Assembly: GCF_002217405.1 (NCBI RefSeq)
Contig: NZ_MUHE01000014.1
Span: 62,001 to 126,000, forward strand
Source of the DNA: Flavobacterium psychrophilum DSM 3660 = ATCC 49418
Lineage (GTDB): Bacteria; Bacteroidota; Bacteroidia; Flavobacteriales; Flavobacteriaceae
Direction: 5' to 3'
DNA: 64,000 bases
Shown here piece by piece: positions 51,285 to 64,000 of this stretch. The notes below the pieces were generated by a model, which searched no databases, had not been told where the DNA came from, and saw only the letters and a program-made list of their open reading frames with translations. Both the position numbers and the translations under genes were made by a program. Numbering within the stretch: position 1 is the first letter of the stretch; every line of letters starts with the position of its first letter.

Positions 51285-51289
51285 CGATA

Positions 51290-51368
51290 ACTTTAGGGGT
51301 GTCTGCAAAATGTAGGCTGAGATTTTACCCTCGAACCTGATGCAGTTCATACTGCCGTAGGAAAAAGT
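51290..51368 (+). ncRNA. TPP (THI-box) riboswitch aptamer
   Basis: Binds thiamine pyrophosphate and represses thiamine genes. P1 is ACTTT (51290-51294) with AAAGT (51364-51368). The conserved sequence GGGGTG, CTGAGA, ACCC, GAACCTGATGCAGTTCATACTG and the GTAGGAAA end are present. The 79-base leader is standard. Confidence 0.96.
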
Positions 51369-51381
51369 AAGATGACTTCTG

Positions 51382-54226: not shown

Positions 54227-54957
54227 CCATTGCGGGCTTCGATCCTTCGGCAGGAGCAGGAGTTTTGGCAGATATAAAAACATTCGAGCAGCATCGGGTG
54301 TATGGTTTTGCTATTAATACGGCCAACACAATTCAAACCGAAAATGTTTTTTTTGAAATGAATTGGACAAACTTAGATTTTGTCTCGAAATCATTAGAAA
54401 AATTATTCGAAAACTATCCTATTAAGGCAGTAAAAATAGGGATTGTTCCAACATTAGATTATTTAAGTCATATTGTTTTTAAGATAAAAAAGCTTTCGCC
54501 AAAAACAAAAGTTGTTTGGGATACTGTTTTAAAATCTAGTACTGAATTTAATTTTTTAAACATCGAAAATCAAGATTTTTTGATTAAAATATTGAAAGAA
54601 ATAGATTTGATTACCCCAAATTATCAAGAGGTTTTGAAACTTTCTGCAAATTTAATCGATGCAAATTCAATTGCAACAAAACTTTCAGAATATTGCGCCG
54701 TTTTACTAAAAGGAGGTCATAATCTAAACAAAATTGGATTTGATTATTTGTATTTGGACCATAAATCTCTTACCCTTCAACCAAATGTTACTACTCAAAT
54801 TTTCGAAAAACATGGTTCTGGTTGTGTACTATCATCGGCCATTACAGCCAATTTAGCTTTAGGGCAAGATTTAAAAACAGCTTGCATTAATGCCAAAAAA
54901 TATATAGAAACCTACTTGCAATCTACTCCAACCAAATTAGGAAATCATTATGTATAA
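54199..54957 (+). CDS. thiD: Hydroxymethylpyrimidine (phosphate) kinase ThiD
   Basis: 252-residue ribokinase-fold enzyme that phosphorylates HMP to HMP-PP. TIAGFDPSAGAGVLADIKTF at the N-terminus and VLLKGGH and GSGCVLSSAI near the C-terminus are the substrate and catalytic motifs. The start (54199) overlaps the preceding gene by 28 bases; the alternative start would lose the GFDPSAGAG loop. The stop overlaps thiE by 8 bases. Confidence 0.94.
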   Translation: MPANRPFVLTIAGFDPSAGAGVLADIKTFEQHRVYGFAINTANTIQTENVFFEMNWTNLDFVSKSLEKLFENYPIKAVKIGIVPTLDYLSHIVFKIKKLSPKTKVVWDTVLKSSTEFNFLNIENQDFLIKILKEIDLITPNYQEVLKLSANLIDANSIATKLSEYCAVLLKGGHNLNKIGFDYLYLDHKSLTLQPNVTTQIFEKHGSGCVLSSAITANLALGQDLKTACINAKKYIETYLQSTPTKLGNHYV

Positions 54958-55570
54958 CAAATTACAATACATCTCACAAGGAAAGACAATAGAAGAGCAA
55001 TTGTTAAATATTCGAAAAGCATTAGAAAATGGTTGCCAATGGATTCAGATGCGATTCAAAGACACACATTCTGATAACGTTTTTACATTGGCAGAAGCCG
55101 TAAAAAGGATGTGTCAAGAATATACAGCCACTTTTATTATTAACGATAACGTGTATTTGGCAAAAAAAATAAATGCAGACGGCGTTCATTTAGGGTTAAA
55201 TGACATGAATATTGCAGAGGCAAGAACCATTTTAGGCGAGGCAAAAATCATTGGAGGCACAGCTAATACCTTCGAAGAGGTACTGCAAAGAACAGCCGAA
55301 AATTGTAATTATATTGGCTTAGGTCCTTTTCAATTTACTGCTACAAAAGAAAAATTAAGTCCCGTTTTAGGATTAGAAGGTTATCATTTAATTATTCAGC
55401 AAATGAAAACAAAAAAAAATAAGATTCCTATTTACGCCATCGGAGGAATTCAACTTGAAAACGTTGACGATATAATGAAAACTGGAATTTACGGAATTGC
55501 CGTTTCGGGTTTAATTACCCAAAGCGAAAATCCATTTCAATTAATTACCCAACTTAACAAAAAACTATAA
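54950..55570 (+). CDS. thiE: Thiamine phosphate synthase ThiE
   Basis: Couples HMP-PP with thiazole phosphate to give thiamine phosphate. 206 aa TIM barrel with [35 protein letters not shown] and IYAIGGI, the complete ThiE active-site set. Its TAA overlaps the ATG of thiG (TAATG). Confidence 0.95.
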
Positions 55571-56340
55571 TGCTATCATTTAAAATAAGAGACAAAACAT
55601 TCGAATCTCGCTTGTTTTTAGGAACAGGAAAATTTGGTTCCAATCAGCAAATGGAAGAAGCCATACTAGCATCAGGAAGCCAATTGGTTACAGTAGCACT
55701 AAAACGTATAGATTTAGAAACCCAAACCGATGCTATTTTAGCACATCTCAAACACCCAAGGATCAATTTATTACCTAATACTTCTGGTGCACGAAACGCT
55801 AAAGAAGCTATTTTTGCAGCACAATTGGCTCGAGAAGCATTAGAAACAAATTGGTTAAAACTCGAAATTCATCCAGATCCAAAATATTTAATGCCCGATG
55901 CCATCGAAACCTTGAAAGCCACCGAAGAATTGGCCAAATTAGGATTTATCATCTTACCTTATATTCATGCGGATCCAGTATTATGCAAACGTTTGGAAGA
56001 GGCAGGAACATCGGCCGTAATGCCTTTGGGGTCGCCAATAGGAAGCAACAAAGGACTAAAAACCATCGATTTTTTAGAAATTATTATCGAGCAAAGTAAA
56101 GTTCCAGTAATCATCGATGCCGGAATTGGGGCACCATCTGATGCGGCAAAAGCGATGGAATTAGGGGCTGATGCCGTTTTGGTAAATACCGCTATTGCCA
56201 TAGCCGGAAATCCAAAATTAATGGCAGAAGCCTTTAAGGAAGCAGTAATGGCAGGAAGAAAAGCCTATGAAGCAAAATTGGCTCAAAAGGCAAGCCAAGC
56301 AGTAGCTTCGAGTCCTTTGACAGCGTTTTTGTATGAATAG
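55570..56340 (+). CDS. thiG: Thiazole synthase ThiG
   Basis: Forms the thiazole ring from deoxyxylulose phosphate, the ThiH product and ThiS thiocarboxylate. 256 aa TIM barrel; Schiff-base lysine K97 in [14 protein letters not shown]. The start overlaps the thiE stop. ThiH follows 125 bases later. Confidence 0.97.
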
Positions 56341-56465
56341 TAATAGTTTACTTCAATGCGCAAAAATAAATTATCATGTATTGGTTAAACTTAACGGCAA
56401 TTGAAGCAGAATAAGAAACTACAGATTTGAAATAACAATTTAATTTGTGTGAGAAAACAAAACAA

Positions 56466-57587
56466 ATGAACACATTTAACTCAATTTTTGAAAGTTATGA
56501 TTGGGATACCATTCAAAACAAAATATATCAGACTACAGCAACGGAAGTCGAACGGGCTTTGTCTAAAAACAAACGCAATCTAAATGATTTCTTGGTTTTA
56601 ATTTCGCCTGCTGCTCAGCCTTTTTTAGAACAAATGGCGCAATTAAGTAGTGAATTAACACAAAAACGCTTTGGCAAAACTATTCAAATGTATGCGCCTT
56701 TATATTTAAGTAACGAATGTCAAAATATTTGCACCTATTGCGGTTTTAGTTTAAACAACAAAATTAAACGAAAAACACTTACCGAAAGTGAAATTACATT
56801 AGAAGTAGAAGTCTTAAAAAAAGCAGGATTCGATCATGTTTTGTTAGTAACTGGAGAAGCTAATTATACGGTAAATATTAATTATTTTTTGAAATCAGTA
56901 GCGCAAATAAAAAAGGATTTTTCGACAATTTCGGTCGAAGTGCAACCTTTATCAGTCGAAGAATACAAACAATTGCACGAAGCTGGTGTTTATTCTGTTT
57001 TAGTATATCAGGAAACCTACCATCGTGATGTGTACAAAACATATCATACCAAAGGAAAAAAATCTAATTTCGACTTCAGATTAGAAACTCCTGACAGAGT
57101 AGGAATGGCAGGAATGCACAAAATTGGATTGGGCGTTTTGTTGGGATTGGAAGATTGGCGAACCGATAGTTTTTTTAACGCCTTGCATATAGATTATTTA
57201 CAAAAAACCTATTGGCAAACCAAATACACCGTTTCTTTTCCAAGATTACGTCCCGCTGAAGGGGTTATTAAACCTAATTTTATAATGAGCGACAAGGACT
57301 TGGCCCAACTCATTTGTGCGTATCGTTTGTGGAATGAAGACTTAGAAATTTCGCTATCTACACGAGAGAACGAAAAATTTCGTAATAATATAATTCCGTT
57401 GGGAATTACCAGCATGAGTGCCGGTTCTAAAACAAATCCGGGTGGTTATGTAGTAGATCAGCAATCTTTAGAGCAATTTGAAATCAGTGACGAGCGTTCT
57501 GCTCAAGAAATAGCAAAACTCATTTCTAGTCAAGGATACGAACCAGTTTGGAAAGATTGGGACAAAAGTTATGCAACAGTAGATTAA
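56466..57587 (+). CDS. thiH: Tyrosine lyase ThiH (2-iminoacetate synthase)
   Basis: Radical SAM enzyme that cleaves tyrosine to dehydroglycine for thiazole. 373 aa from ATG at 56466; an upstream TTG at 56445 is less likely. Cluster motif C85-x3-C89-x2-C92 (CQNICTYC). The radical SAM and BATS-domain landmarks (GMHKIGLGVLLGL, SFPRLRPAEG, STREN) are present. The use of ThiH rather than ThiO fits an organism with anaerobic or microaerobic capacity. Confidence 0.96.
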   Translation: MNTFNSIFESYDWDTIQNKIYQTTATEVERALSKNKRNLNDFLVLISPAAQPFLEQMAQLSSELTQKRFGKTIQMYAPLYLSNECQNICTYCGFSLNNKIKRKTLTESEITLEVEVLKKAGFDHVLLVTGEANYTVNINYFLKSVAQIKKDFSTISVEVQPLSVEEYKQLHEAGVYSVLVYQETYHRDVYKTYHTKGKKSNFDFRLETPDRVGMAGMHKIGLGVLLGLEDWRTDSFFNALHIDYLQKTYWQTKYTVSFPRLRPAEGVIKPNFIMSDKDLAQLICAYRLWNEDLEISLSTRENEKFRNNIIPLGITSMSAGSKTNPGGYVVDQQSLEQFEISDERSAQEIAKLISSQGYEPVWKDWDKSYATVD

Positions 57588-57608
57588 TGATTTTAGATTT
57601 TATAAAAC

Positions 57609-58319
57609 ATGAGTAAAATACAAGAATTTTTACGATACAACCGACAGACAATGTTGCCAGAGATAGGCGATTCCGGACAAGAAAAACTTAAAAAAGCAAA
57701 GGTTTTAGTCATTGGAGCAGGAGGGTTGGGTTGCCCTGTTTTACAATATATTTCTACAGCAGGAGTTGGTACTATTGGAATTGTAGATTTTGATAAAATT
57801 GAAATGCACAATTTGCACCGTCAAATTTTATATACGGAAAAGCAAGTAGGTTTATCGAAAGCCTTAACAGCAAAAGAGAGGCTAGAAAAACTAAACCCAT
57901 TAATCGATATTATTGCTTTCGATGAGAAATTAACTTTTGAAAACGCAACTCAAATTATTCAAAAATTTGATGTAGTTCTCGACGGATGCGATAATTTTGA
58001 GACTCGTTATTTAGTTAACGATACTTGTGTAGCCCTAGGAAAGACATTGGTTTACGGTAGTATTTTGAAATATCAAGGACAAATGGCCATTTTTAATCAC
58101 AACGGAAGCAAAAACCTTCGACACTTATTTCCTGAACCACCCAATTCTAGCGATGTTCCTAATTGTAACTTAAACGGCGTGATAGGAACACTTCCAGGAA
58201 TTATTGGTACAATGATGGGGCACGAAACCTTGAAATTGATTATAGATTTGCCAGTTTTAAAAAACGAATTAGTCCTTTTTGATACTTTATATTGGGATTT
58301 TAGGAAGCTGAAGTTTTAA
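57609..58319 (+). CDS. thiF: ThiF/MoeB/HesA-family adenylyltransferase
   Basis: Adenylates the ThiS C-terminal Gly. 236 aa. The ATP loop GAGGLG (36-41) follows an N-terminal [26 protein letters not shown] and [13 protein letters not shown] are typical. The CxxC zinc pairs of MoeB are not seen. It is the last gene of the thi operon. Confidence 0.9.
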
Positions 58320-59146: not shown

Positions 59147-59710
59147 ATGACTGAAGAAATTGATTTTATTCTCGATAGCACCAAAGAATCTATGGAAGGT
59201 TCTATTGCCCATTTAGAAAAAGAATTTTTAAATATTCGTGCAGGAAAAGCTTCGCCAGCCATGTTAGGAAGTGTTTTTGTAGATTATTATGGTTCGGTAA
59301 CACCACTTTCGCAAGTAGCAAAAATTAGCGTGCCAGATGCCAGAACAATTACATTACAGCCTTTCGAAAAAAACATGTTGCAAGTAATTGAGAAAGCAAT
59401 TATGATAGCTAATATTGGTTTTAATCCAATGAATAATGGAGATGTAATCATCATTAGTGTTCCGCCACTTACCGAAGAAAGAAGGCGTGAGCTTGCAAAA
59501 CAAGCAAAAACCGAAGCCGAAGACGCGAAAATAGGTGTTCGTAATGTTCGTAAAGATTCTAATTCAGACATAAAAAAATTAGAAAAAGAAGGAACATCTG
59601 AAGATGCTTGTAAAATTGCCGAGGAAAGCGTTCAGAAACTAACAGATAGTTTTATCAGAAAAGTAGATGAACTATTAGTAGTTAAAGAGGCCGAAATAAT
59701 GAAGGTTTAG
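59147..59710 (+). CDS. frr: Ribosome recycling factor
   Basis: Releases the ribosome from mRNA after termination. 187 aa with FLNIRAGKASPAML, FEKNMLQVIEKAI and PPLTEERRRELAKQAK signature segments. Follows pyrH by 46 bases. Confidence 0.98.
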   Translation: MTEEIDFILDSTKESMEGSIAHLEKEFLNIRAGKASPAMLGSVFVDYYGSVTPLSQVAKISVPDARTITLQPFEKNMLQVIEKAIMIANIGFNPMNNGDVIIISVPPLTEERRRELAKQAKTEAEDAKIGVRNVRKDSNSDIKKLEKEGTSEDACKIAEESVQKLTDSFIRKVDELLVVKEAEIMKV

Positions 59711-59732: not shown

Positions 59733-59770
59733 AAAATCCGTTAAGATTAAAAGCTTAGCGGATTTTTTTA
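59733..59770 (+). terminator. Terminator after frr
   Basis: AAATCCGTTAAG (59734-59745) with CTTAGCGGATTT (59754-59765), one G-T pair, followed by a T run. Confidence 0.9.
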
Positions 59771-59869: not shown

Positions 59870-60952
59870 ATGAATATTAGAAAAACACTTCTCAATATCG
59901 TTATATTTTCATTTTTTTTTCAAAATTTATCGTTTTCACAAGAAACACCAGAAAATCTATTTGCTGGAATTGAAATAGGTAGTAAAGGAATTAAAATGTC
60001 TGTTTTAGATGTTAAAAATATCCGAAGAGGAGATTTTGAGATTAAATCGTATTGGTCTGAAAACATAGGAATTGCAAAAGGAATCGCTATCGATGGAAAT
60101 TTAGCCAAAGAAGATATAGATAAAGCAGCAGCAACAGTACTTTCTAATTACATAAAAATAAAAAATGATTTTAAAGTAACCGACGAAAATATCTTTATAG
60201 TTGGATCCTCTGGTGTTGCCATGGCAAATAATACACAGGAATTAATAGATAAAGTTAAATTGTCAATAAATAAAAATCTAGATTTTATTGATGCTCAAAC
60301 AGAAGGAAAAATGCTGCTAAAAGGGTGTGTTCCACCTTCAGATTATAAAGACTCTATTATTCTAGATATAGGCGGCGGAAACACTAAAGGCGGCTATATA
60401 GATGTTAGGAATAATGATACTTTTGTGTTTTTTCCATTAAGTGTTAATTACGGAACCATAACACTAACGGAAGCGGTAATAAAGAAAACACGTAAAGACG
60501 ATATTTCAGAATATAACGACAAATCATTCGGGTTTCTCCCTACATTGCGAGACCAAGTAAATGCTATGTATAATGCTAGTCCAGTTGCTTTAGTAAAAGA
60601 TAAAATATTCATGTCTGGCGGTGCAGTCTGGGCTTTTTATACACTTTATAATGGCGTAGCAAAAGAAAATTTTAATAAATTTAATTTAGAAGATGTACTC
60701 AATTATGATGCAGTTCTAAAAAACAACTTCAGAAAATTTGAAGAATTAGCAAAAACAGATAAAGATGTAGAAAAAGTGCTAAAAACCTATTCGCAAAAAC
60801 ACCTAATATCTGGGAGTAATATCCTTTTGGTTTGTCTTGAAGCAATTCCAAAAGTAAATAGTAAAAAATTATATTTTGCTAAAGAAGGACAAATTGCATG
60901 GCTTGTATCTTATATTGCTGATCGGTCTAAAAAAATAAAAAAAATTTATTAA
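59870..60952 (+). CDS. Secreted Ppx/GppA-like ASKHA-fold protein
   Basis: 360 residues with a signal peptide (about 1-24, FSQ). The mature protein has the actin-like ATPase landmarks of the Ppx/GppA exopolyphosphatase family: GIEIGSKGIKM (phosphate 1; Glu replaces the usual Asp), IVGSSGVAMA, DAQTEGKMLL in place of the SGxEEA motif, and DIGGGNTKGG (166-175). Cytoplasmic Ppx/GppA hydrolyse polyphosphate or pppGpp; a periplasmic copy is odd. Catalysis is not assured because of the Asp change. Neighbours: MFS and coiled-coil proteins. Confidence 0.7.
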   Translation: MNIRKTLLNIVIFSFFFQNLSFSQETPENLFAGIEIGSKGIKMSVLDVKNIRRGDFEIKSYWSENIGIAKGIAIDGNLAKEDIDKAAATVLSNYIKIKNDFKVTDENIFIVGSSGVAMANNTQELIDKVKLSINKNLDFIDAQTEGKMLLKGCVPPSDYKDSIILDIGGGNTKGGYIDVRNNDTFVFFPLSVNYGTITLTEAVIKKTRKDDISEYNDKSFGFLPTLRDQVNAMYNASPVALVKDKIFMSGGAVWAFYTLYNGVAKENFNKFNLEDVLNYDAVLKNNFRKFEELAKTDKDVEKVLKTYSQKHLISGSNILLVCLEAIPKVNSKKLYFAKEGQIAWLVSYIADRSKKIKKIY

Positions 60953-61149
60953 TAGTTTTGCTTAATTCTAACCAATACCAAGTGGTAAACGTTAAAAAAA
61001 ATAACCAGCACAGATTTACGATTAAAATTAGATTGTTGGCCTCAAAAAAAAAAATATAAATCGACTGTCATGTAATTAAATGATGAGAATAAAATCAAGA
61101 AGTTAGCCCCTATTTCGTAATAAAAAACTAAAAACTAAAAACTAAAAAA

Positions 61150-62391
61150 ATGAAAAGCTATTTTAATGCTTATTTTGATAACTTTAAAGGTTTTTCGAAA
61201 GAGGTTTGGGTTCTAACATTAATAACCTACATTAATCGAGCAGGCGCTATGGTCATGTTGTTTCTAACCAAATATTTACATGATAATCTTTTTTTTAATT
61301 TAACCCAAATAGGTTGGATGCTTGTTTGTATAGGCGTTGGAGCATTATTTGGAAACTGGATTGGCGGAAAACTAACCGATATATTAGGGTTTTATACCAT
61401 CATGCTTGCAAGTCTTTTCTTAACAGGTTTTGGTATCATATCCTTAATGTTTTTATGCGATTTTGTAGAAATATGCATCGGTTTATTTCTAGTAACCGCA
61501 ATTGCCGATATGTATAAACCTGCAATGTATGTAGCAGTATCTAACTTTACCAATAGAAAAAACAGAACTAGGGCATTAACCTTAGTTCGATTAGCCGTAA
61601 ATTTGGGTATAGTTTCAGGGCCAATAATTGCAGGGCTAGTTATACAAAAAGATGATTACGACATGCTTTTCTGGATAGATGGACTAACTTGTATTATAGC
61701 AATTTCTGTTTTTATGTTGCTTATAGATGAGAATAACATAACCAGAGCTCGACAAAAAATAACTAGAGACAGGGAAAAAGAGAAGGTAATAAATAAAAAA
61801 ATAAAAACAGACACTAATTACATCATTTTTCTTTTGGCTAGTTTCTTAACCGCTTTTCTGTTTTTTCAATTATTTACAACAATGCCATTATACAACTCAG
61901 ACAAATTAAAGCTTAATGAGTTTGAAATAGGAATGCTACTTGCATTAAACGGATTGATAATATTTCTTTTCGAAATGCCTCTAATAGGTTTTCTAGAAAG
62001 AAAAAAAACACAAATAACTAAGATAATATTGCAGGGTTCTGTATTTATGACTTCTGGATTTTTGTTTTTACTAATTTCAAAATCAGTATTTGTAATAATT
62101 ATTAGTATTTTTCTAATAACCTTAGGGCAAATCTTGCTTTTTTCATTTTCTAATAGTTTTGCTTTTACACGAGCTGTTCAGGGACAAGAAGGAAAATATA
62201 TGGCTTTTTACGCTATGAGTTTTAGCGCTGCACAAATATTAAGTCCAAAAATTGGCTTTAGCGTTATCGAAAATTTCAATTACTTTTATAATTGGTTACT
62301 AATGGGGGGTATAGGAGTTATAGGTATAATGCTTTACTATAAATTAGATAAAAATATTACATTTGAAACACTCGAAAAAAGAATGAAATAA
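61150..62391 (+). CDS. MFS transporter
   Basis: 413 residues with twelve predicted membrane helices and the loop 2-3 motif (GNWIGGKLTDILG), features of the major facilitator superfamily. A central loop is basic (ITRARQKITRDREKEK). The substrate is unknown. It starts after three direct copies of AAAAACT. It lies in a probable accessory run with the Ppx-like and coiled-coil genes. Confidence 0.88.
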   Translation: MKSYFNAYFDNFKGFSKEVWVLTLITYINRAGAMVMLFLTKYLHDNLFFNLTQIGWMLVCIGVGALFGNWIGGKLTDILGFYTIMLASLFLTGFGIISLMFLCDFVEICIGLFLVTAIADMYKPAMYVAVSNFTNRKNRTRALTLVRLAVNLGIVSGPIIAGLVIQKDDYDMLFWIDGLTCIIAISVFMLLIDENNITRARQKITRDREKEKVINKKIKTDTNYIIFLLASFLTAFLFFQLFTTMPLYNSDKLKLNEFEIGMLLALNGLIIFLFEMPLIGFLERKKTQITKIILQGSVFMTSGFLFLLISKSVFVIIISIFLITLGQILLFSFSNSFAFTRAVQGQEGKYMAFYAMSFSAAQILSPKIGFSVIENFNYFYNWLLMGGIGVIGIMLYYKLDKNITFETLEKRMK

Positions 62392-62449
62392 TGTACTTTA
62401 ACCGACGATTAAAACAATCACTTCAAAAATAAAAACGGCGAAAATAAAA

Positions 62450-63358
62450 ATGTCAAAAAAAAGGAAAGCAACACAAAATAATAAAAGTTTCAAGACAATA
62501 ATAATTTTATTAGCCTGTACTATGCTTGTAGGTCTTTTTTATACTTACAAAATAACTAGTAGATCAAAAAAAGAAATTATAACACTTAGAGAAGATAAAG
62601 AGAACATGTTAAAAGATTTAGAAAAATCTCAATTGTTTTTAAATCAGATCATGACTTCTAATAAAATGTTGTCGAGTAAATTAGTAGCAGAACAAGATAA
62701 GATAAAACAGCTTATACTCGATTTGAATTCGAAAAATATAACAGAAAAAAACATAGCAGATTATAAGAAAACTGCAAATAATGTAGACGCTAGGATTAAA
62801 TCATTGCTGAATGAAATAGACAGATACAAAAAAAAAATAGACAGTACTAACATCGTTTTAGCAAAAACAAATATCGACTTAACAAAAACAAGCGCCAGCT
62901 TAATTAAAGAAAAAAACAAAAATGACACACTAACTGTTTCTAATGTAAAATTAGCTAACAAAATTAGCGATGCTTCTAAACTTTATTTCTTCGATTTGAA
63001 AACAAATTTTTTTAAACTAAAAAGCTCAGGAAAGCTTATAGAAACAGACAATGCTAACAAAATAAACCTAATAAAATTTAGCTTTATGATTGCCGAAAAT
63101 AATCTGGCAAAACCAACAACTAAAGATTTTTATATTCAAATAATAGATAGTAAAAACAATGTTTTGGGAAGTAAAAATCTCGAGAAATTTGGAAATGAAA
63201 CTTTAAATTACAGCACTTTATTAAAAGTTAAATATCAAAATAAAAACACAAAAGTAGAAGGAGAAATTCCAGTAACCAATCTACAAGGCGGGATTTTGTT
63301 TATTAATGTTTTCGATAAATCTAAACTCATTTTAAACTCGGCAGTCACTTTGTCATAA
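62450..63358 (+). CDS. Membrane-anchored periplasmic coiled-coil protein
   Basis: 302 residues. A basic N-terminus, one membrane helix (about 16-34), a long coiled coil (about 45-170) then a globular C-terminal domain with INLIKFSFMIAENNLAK, FYIQIIDSKNNVLG and VTNLQGGILFINVF strands. Similar architecture occurs in a family of Bacteroidota envelope proteins of unknown function. No enzymatic motif. Confidence 0.75.
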   Translation: MSKKRKATQNNKSFKTIIILLACTMLVGLFYTYKITSRSKKEIITLREDKENMLKDLEKSQLFLNQIMTSNKMLSSKLVAEQDKIKQLILDLNSKNITEKNIADYKKTANNVDARIKSLLNEIDRYKKKIDSTNIVLAKTNIDLTKTSASLIKEKNKNDTLTVSNVKLANKISDASKLYFFDLKTNFFKLKSSGKLIETDNANKINLIKFSFMIAENNLAKPTTKDFYIQIIDSKNNVLGSKNLEKFGNETLNYSTLLKVKYQNKNTKVEGEIPVTNLQGGILFINVFDKSKLILNSAVTLS

Positions 63359-63454: not shown

Positions 63455-64000
63455 ATGACCTCAAAAAAGCGACTTTTTTTTATATGTTTTTTTCTTTTTT
63501 TTCTTGCTAATGTAAAAACCATTGCGCAAAAAAACATCTCTCTTGTAGATACTATTATTAAGAAAACAATTCTATTTAGAACAAGAAATAATCCTAAAAA
63601 TTACCAGTTTATAGCTTATAACAAACTCATTATAACAGCAAACCCTAATTTAATAGAAGGCAGGATAGATTCTGTTTTTACCACCAAACATAAGAAAAAA
63701 ATGTTCTCTAGGATAGATTCCTCTGATTATATTTTTAAAAAAATAATCACCAAGCAGCATTTGTATCAAACGGAAAAAATTTCAAAATTTCAAGTTAAAA
63801 ACAATCACCAGAAGGAAAGAATTTTAGCTACGAAAATGGCTGGTTTCAAAGAACCCATTTACGAATATTTTGCTTTACAACTTCAACCTTTTTCAGTTTA
63901 TGATGATGAATACTCGCTAGTAGAAAAAGAATATATAAGTCCAATTTCTAATAACGGAATAAAAAAATATGATTATACTTTTTTAGAAACCATTTTTTTA
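63455..64000 (+). CDS. DUF5686-family outer membrane protein (3' truncated by window edge)
   Basis: 182 residues visible; the frame is open to the edge. A signal peptide (about 1-25, IA-QK) leads into NPKNYQFIAYNKLIIT, RIDSVF, FSRIDSSDYIFKK, HLYQTEKISKF, RILATKMAGFKEPIYEYFALQLQPFSVYDDEY, landmarks of DUF5686 proteins, which continue as an outer-membrane barrel. The usual N-terminal carboxypeptidase-regulatory-like domain is missing in this copy. Function unknown. Confidence 0.85.
   Translation, partial: MTSKKRLFFICFFLFFLANVKTIAQKNISLVDTIIKKTILFRTRNNPKNYQFIAYNKLIITANPNLIEGRIDSVFTTKHKKKMFSRIDSSDYIFKKIITKQHLYQTEKISKFQVKNNHQKERILATKMAGFKEPIYEYFALQLQPFSVYDDEYSLVEKEYISPISNNGIKKYDYTFLETIFL

Follow-up and report, generated by a model that had tools for sequence, protein, structure and literature searches.

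What might a Ppx/GppA-like protein do outside the cytoplasm? To our knowledge, Ppx/GppA enzymes act inside the cell. Near the right end of a 64,000-nucleotide stretch of Flavobacterium psychrophilum DSM 3660 (= ATCC 49418; contig NZ_MUHE01000014.1, positions 62,001 to 126,000, referred to here as the window, in whose numbering all window coordinates are given), a gene at 59870-60952 on the plus strand encodes a 360-residue Ppx/GppA-like protein with a signal peptide. The computed observations were an export signal, a Ppx fold, residue changes in the active site, recurrent linkage to genes for a major facilitator superfamily (MFS) transporter and for a small protein of predicted Roadblock-like fold (RLC), and strong purifying selection in the sampled pairs. 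From these we infer a ligand, a loss of hydrolysis and a partnership with the MFS transporter. The explanation that we tentatively prefer is that the protein is a periplasmic Ppx derivative that binds phosphate or a polyanion, rather than a standard polyphosphatase, and that it may serve as a partner of the MFS transporter.

The translated gene matched the Pfam family Ppx-GppA (PF02541) with an E-value of 8e-14 and 52.2 bits against a cut-off of 27, and its score with the exopolyphosphatase model TIGR03706 was 58.8, far under the cut-off of 307. An AlphaFold2 model, generated with 20 family members in the alignment (pLDDT 88, pTM 0.83), had the two-domain ASKHA fold of Ppx and matched 3cer with Z up to 32.6. 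In a second structure comparison the 23 best PDB entries were all Ppx/GppA proteins, with Z of 24.4-32.6. The preliminary description of this DNA, which was made from the sequence without database searches, had called the protein Ppx/GppA-like, and both the Pfam match and the modelled fold supported this identity. The fold was the same as in Aquifex Ppx (1t6c), the H. pylori protein (6pc1) and BlR13 (3cer) over residues ~25-360, and, like Aquifex Ppx, the protein is a short form with no C-terminal extension. It resembles Ppx/GppA enzymes in keeping the catalytic-position Glu, the Asp of motif 2 and, in the larger of the two clades described below (clade 1), the glycine loop, but differs from them in its signal peptide, in the Asp-to-Glu change of motif 1, in the change of the GGGSTE glutamate to Lys and in the loss of an Arg in helix 1.

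The next-best structures were nucleoside triphosphate diphosphohydrolases (NTPDases, the apyrases of the GDA1/CD39 family), with Z up to 22.6; rat NTPDase2 and Legionella NTPDase1 were at about 20-22. NTPDases are exported, carry a catalytic-position Glu and lack a Glu in their second phosphate motif, and the present protein resembles them in all three features. The ASKHA fold that it shares with them, for example with Legionella NTPDase1, is superfamily-wide and so not diagnostic. It also differs from NTPDases, with an identity of only ~9-14% at Z 19.5-22.6, and no match to the GDA1_CD39 family was obtained at E 1 or below. Comparison with anti-phage defence families (PADLOC) gave weak matches only (AbiEi 0.007, DruC 0.12).

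The N-terminus reads MNIRKTLLNIVIFSFFFQNLSFS up to the likely cleavage site before Q24 and QE from there on, which is a type-I signal peptide as read by eye (residues 1-23; 59870-59938, plus strand). A hydrophobic stretch upstream of the GIE[IV]G motif (best 10-residue Kyte-Doolittle mean ≥2.1) was found in 102 of 102 homologous copies, which include the same genomes under two names and comprise 84 distinct sequences; for copy L075, which has GMEIG, the first 30 residues were scored instead. Near the end of the leader, a small residue followed by Q was present in 80 of the 84 distinct sequences, as expected for signal peptidase I, whereas the canonical Ppx of relatives had only 6-15 residues upstream of the motif-1 Asp (seven sequences). 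Hence, the sequence comparison confirms the signal peptide proposed in the preliminary description. That description had named a mis-called start among the things that would overturn its view, in which case the protein would be an ordinary cytoplasmic Ppx. We give this alternative hardly any credence, because nothing was found in its favor and the leader was found in all 102 copies; moreover, the first later in-frame Met is M43, and a start there would remove motif 1. A cytoplasmic Ppx with a wrong start was therefore ruled out. A separate, ordinary cytoplasmic Ppx is encoded in the same genome, ~2 kb from a ppk gene, which also speaks against a mis-called start; the exported protein is therefore present in addition to the normal enzyme rather than in its place. 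No C-terminal domain of the type IX secretion system was found, Ppx-GppA being the sole Pfam family at E 1 or below, and the periplasm rather than the cell surface was therefore assumed as the destination.

To describe the family, we used the best 80 of 175 confirmed relatives (79 distinct loci) together with the window gene and a second copy from elsewhere in the same genome (L031), which is 73% identical to it. The best named match to the window gene among these 80 was from F. swingsii, with 88% identity. Clade 1 contains 59 sequences, including that of the window, with the motif G[GS]GN[TAS]KG, and clade 2 contains 25 sequences with GIE[IV][GS]RR and mostly DIGAQTTKG, in which the glycine loop is lost. 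Seven canonical Ppx of relatives served for comparison (eight loci were tried; L023 gave none).

In the window protein, motif 1 is E35-I-G-S-K-G-I-K42 (59972-59995) and motif 2 is D166-I-G-G-G-N-T-K173-G-G (60365-60394), and an HMMER alignment placed the catalytic-position Glu of Ppx at E145 (60302-60304), all on the plus strand. The preliminary description had reported a kept DIGGGNT phosphate loop and a change of the first motif Asp to Glu. Both were observed: the loop is part of motif 2, DIGGGNTKGG, and motif 1 reads EIGSKG, with E35 fixed in 84/84 distinct sequences where Asp is found in 7/7 canonical Ppx, most of which have D-I-G-S-N-x-x-R. Position 39 is Lys in all 59 clade-1 sequences, Arg in all 25 of clade 2 and Asn in the seven canonical ones. 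Two further changes were not in that description. The GGGSTE glutamate, present in 7/7 canonical Ppx, is replaced by K173 in 84/84, and the helix-1 arginine of the canonical ATSAxR (7/7) is absent from all 84, its place being taken by Ala (47), Gly (24), Ser (7), Thr (3) and by Lys, Glu and Gln once each. E145, whose equivalent we take to be Aquifex E119, and D166 are kept in 84/84, with Glu and Asp, respectively, in 7/7 canonical Ppx. The Glu-to-Lys change in GGGSTE is the more telling one and the Asp-to-Glu change in motif 1 the milder.

The equivalent residues have been measured in DrPPX of D. radiodurans, a PPX with polyphosphate as substrate. There, kcat/Km was 2.28 for the wild type and 0.05, 0.05, 0.1 and 0.04 for D7A, E114A, D136A and E143A, respectively, so that the four acid-to-Ala mutants were lowered ~20- to 60-fold; D7 contacts a modelled Mg2+, E114, D136 and E143 contact water, and E114 contacts R86 (PMC11234463). 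When these residue numbers were transferred by the position of the motifs, without alignment to DrPPX, the site of D7 is Glu, that of E143 is Lys and that of R86 is never Arg in the present family, while E114 is kept (84/84). With three of five centre residues altered, ordinary exopolyphosphatase activity is doubtful by the DrPPX precedent, and the protein is probably not a standard polyphosphatase. The altered site is not decaying, because the motif columns, which were picked by the analyst, vary far less than the remaining ones (mean entropy 0.19 bits vs 1.33 elsewhere in clade 1, and 0.08 vs 0.51 in clade 2) and dN/dS was 0.03-0.13 in nine of the ten pairs tried, the tenth being saturated.

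As the main rival explanation, the protein could be a periplasmic phosphohydrolase that is still active but has a changed chemistry or substrate, similar to an NTPDase. It would then scavenge phosphate from polyphosphate or nucleotides outside the cell, or dephosphorylate a compound moved by the MFS transporter. The retention of E145 and D166 in all 84 sequences and of the glycine loop in clade 1 agrees with such an enzyme, as do the NTPDases that align to the model at Z ~20-22. On the other hand, the Glu-to-Lys change and the loss of the Arg argue against it, as does the persistence of clade 2 and of two distant paralogues (L296 and L297, see below) despite their lost loop residues. In DrPPX, Ala at the equivalent Glu cuts kcat/Km ~57-fold (PMC11234463). 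On balance, we regard an active hydrolase as possible but doubtful.

The preliminary description had also reasoned that a periplasmic ASKHA protein has no supply of ATP. This argument fails, since the substrates of Ppx/GppA are polyphosphate or pppGpp, and exported ASKHA hydrolases exist. Its suggestion of a binding or structural role held in part: binding is favored over standard catalysis, whereas a purely structural role is not favored.

In quick trees with support by the Shimodaira-Hasegawa-like approximate likelihood ratio test only (SH-aLRT), clade 2 was a single clade (SH-aLRT 100) and was nested in clade 1 when the tree was rooted on canonical Ppx, suggesting that clade 2 is probably derived; this polarity depends on the canonical-Ppx root, whose outgroup branch is long. 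One clade-1 and one clade-2 copy lie close together in F. denitrificans (L112). A clade-2 copy with internal stop codons and the motif TTRGG was seen in a 5.9 Mb genome (L022). Beyond these relatives, the family was found at E 1e-25 in 18 of 395 genomes at the level of the order, every one of them in the same genus, and in 19 of 395 at the level of the phylum, of which seven belong to five other genera. Because such searches score a candidate only after it has survived a permissive prefilter, absences are not proof. Two Tamlana records also carry the family in the genome scan. Thus, the exported Ppx-like family spans Flavobacterium and scattered other Bacteroidota.

Ten copies were read from the seven genomes outside the genus. 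In eight of them (L267-L274) the leader is strongly hydrophobic and the lysine of GN[TL]KGG is retained. Since six of these eight have Asp in motif 1, the lysine, and not the Asp-to-Glu change, marks the wider family. The other two, the paralogues L296 and L297, have a leader as read by eye and degenerate phosphate loops. They come from two genomes (G708 and G812) that each have an intact distant copy as well, which echoes the pair of clade 1 and clade 2 in Flavobacterium, and paralogues without the loop seem to have emerged on more than one occasion. Among five distant relatives scanned, none passed the PF02541 cut-off, while TPRs were matched over the cut-off in one and below it in another. 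The TPR matches and the loss of phosphate-loop residues in the paralogues would both fit a purely structural ASKHA scaffold of the envelope that binds proteins and no small ligand and that carries fused TPRs in some other Bacteroidota. We consider this scaffold unlikely, given that the phosphate-loop columns of clade 1, as chosen by the analyst, are far more conserved than the remainder of the protein.

The preliminary description had placed the gene in a cluster with an MFS gene and a coiled-coil envelope protein. The MFS part of this proposal stands. Of the 59 clade-1 copies, 55 have an MFS gene within 6 kb, and the two genes occur in seven arrangements that differ in side, strand and spacing; of the 25 clade-2 copies, only that of L112 has one. 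The coiled-coil protein (62450-63358, plus strand) is membrane-anchored, with no Pfam family over cut-off, and belongs as a paralogue to a family found across the genus, with relatives in 91/101 genomes; it was therefore ruled out as a specific partner. Other neighbors of clade-1 copies within 6 kb were RLC (124 aa; 39/59), GNAT (17), PAS (12) and LuxR-type regulator (11) genes, as well as frr (13) and a BstXI-like nuclease (13).

The Ppx-like gene occurs in 21 of 91 genus genomes, eight with clade 1 and 13 with clade 2 only. At E 1e-40, at least two MFS relatives were found in 8/8 clade-1 genomes and one in 13/13 clade-2-only genomes, and two of the 70 genomes without the Ppx-like gene have two MFS matches (pieces on two contigs in G028, a distant match in G072). 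RLC was present in 18/21 genomes with the Ppx-like gene vs 3/70 others, and two of those three are fragments. In a tree of the MFS proteins, from which three MFS open reading frames (ORFs) under 350 aa and loci L031-L049 were left out, a fully supported branch separated 47 of 53 linked MFS, together with two further MFS of the F. psychrophilum genome, from 23 genus-core MFS. The linkage to MFS and RLC might also reflect shared ancestry or hitch-hiking, with the Ppx-like protein working alone, and the absence of a nearby MFS in 24/25 clade-2 copies, in four clade-1 copies and at eight distant loci is in line with that. However, the pair stays together across the seven arrangements, and an extra MFS is found in 8/8 clade-1 and 0/13 clade-2-only genomes (these are related, and the counts are not independent). 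We therefore judge mere hitch-hiking to be quite improbable.

RLC matched no Pfam family at E 0.1 (two members scanned), and its profile comparison with Robl_LC7 was not significant (hhalign probability 0.4, E 0.14); fold prediction was therefore used. The AlphaFold2 model had a pLDDT of 93.9, and its top Foldseek rows were MglC/MglB and Roadblock proteins, with MglC 7ct3 at E 7e-8 and MglB 6h5b at TM ~0.8. RLC is thus like MglB/MglC and Roadblock/LC7 in predicted fold, but unlike Roadblock/LC7 in having no Pfam match and no significant profile similarity to the adjoining Robl_LC7 family. This adjoining family, with a Robl_LC7 match in the one member scanned, was observed next to RLC at four Flavobacterium loci (L194, L201, L202 and L203), beside genes that we take by eye to be lspA-, dksA- and ileS-like. 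As a separate observation, the BstXI-type restriction endonuclease homologue (PF09552, 4e-67) lies near the Ppx-linked MFS at 13 distinct clade-1 loci (L085-L105 and L112, e.g., L098:7396-8379), and the same 13 loci carry there a secreted-looking protein of 420-445 aa for which no Pfam family reached its cut-off (one scanned).

Several points weigh against a phosphate-binding partner of the MFS transporter. Its ligand, activity and localization are predictions. NTPDases have Gln at the position of the GGGSTE Glu and still hydrolyze, so that the loss of this Glu is no proof of inactivity. Four clade-1 copies, including L031 of the same genome, are without an MFS gene within 6 kb, and the linkage counts are inflated, because the genomes and loci are related and not independent. 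The MFS gene of the window (61150-62391, plus strand; PF07690, 1.1e-45) is on a divergent branch, long and separate, with five others, and the tree ruled it out as a member of the main Ppx-linked MFS clade. The main-type MFS of this genome is located ~8.7 kb past the Ppx-like gene, outside the window, and the usual RLC-GNAT-MFS set starts 7.7 kb past it. At the eight distant Bacteroidota loci, no neighbor matched the MFS, RLC, GNAT, PAS or coiled-coil queries; a weak response-regulator match was seen near L274.

In the mechanism that we propose for the binding protein, the hydrolytic centre of cytoplasmic Ppx would have been rebuilt in a periplasmic Bacteroidota family. The pocket may still bind a phosphate-rich anion, such as polyphosphate, a nucleotide or a phosphorylated solute, with the charge provided by K39, K42 and K173 instead of by Mg2+ as in Ppx, so that standard polyphosphate hydrolysis would be weak or absent. 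The protein would then act as a periplasmic ligand-capturing or slow-processing partner of the MFS transporter, and the system might be adjusted by its cytoplasmic neighbors of the Roadblock-like, PAS, response-regulator or GNAT type. Having lost both its glycine loop and the MFS, clade 2 would represent a derived pseudoenzyme. A broader formulation is more speculative, and we would rate it as improbable as a whole: the exported ASKHA family with the signature GNTKGG, its metal-dependent Ppx centre replaced by lysines, would comprise periplasmic receptors of phosphate polymers or nucleotides, coupled in Flavobacterium to a dedicated MFS and a cytoplasmic MglB-like regulator, with loop-less paralogues repeatedly born as regulatory partners.

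The Ppx-like, MFS and coiled-coil genes and a DUF5686 gene follow frr (59147-59710; PF01765, 1.1e-62) on the same, plus strand, in gene orders taken from mechanical ORF calls. The DUF5686 gene runs off the window (63455-64000), and its fragment, truncated by the window end, matched PF18939 at 1.3e-7 with 30.9 bits, under the cut-off of 39.2. The preliminary description had suggested that the three genes were inserted between frr and the DUF5686 gene, and a comparison of frr loci across the genus supported this. frr was searched in 101 genus genomes and the 30 best-scoring loci were read: a DUF5686a relative was within 1.5 kb 3' of frr in 20, a DUF5686b relative in 2 and neither in 7 (three of these incomplete), and the window was the only one of the 30 with a Ppx-like gene after frr. 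The order frr, Ppx-like, MFS, coiled-coil was also found in F. swingsii, F. terrae, F. amniphilum and F. amnicola; in F. luminosum and strain H122, frr is followed by the Ppx-like gene and then by DUF5686. One of the loci analyzed, a contig recorded as Limnohabitans sp. MAG20 (L064), has the same four-gene order and is probably mis-binned, since this order is that of Flavobacterium.

A terminator-like hairpin with a T tract is located 3' of frr (59733-59766, plus strand), and the evidence for it is weak because the pattern scan gave one such site vs 0.9 expected in shuffles. A scan for sigma-70 promoters was uninformative, with 12 sites vs 19.5 in shuffles. Elsewhere in the window, a thiamine pyrophosphate (TPP) riboswitch lies at 51285-51380, with thiamine-synthesis-like genes downstream (54950-58319, presumably thiE, thiG, thiH and thiF-like as named by eye) that precede pyrH-frr. 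Four Flavo-1 RNAs occur within ~10 kb (25620, 28374, 30151 and 35700).

No description of this exported Ppx-like family was found in the open-access literature searched (one library, titles and starts of abstracts). The label "exopolyphosphatase" given from a Pfam match alone is probably misleading for its members. With fixed changes at residues measured in cytoplasmic Ppx, the exported branch would offer a clean test of how an ASKHA phosphohydrolase becomes a binding protein, and the family may reveal periplasmic sensing of polyphosphate or nucleotides in Bacteroidota.

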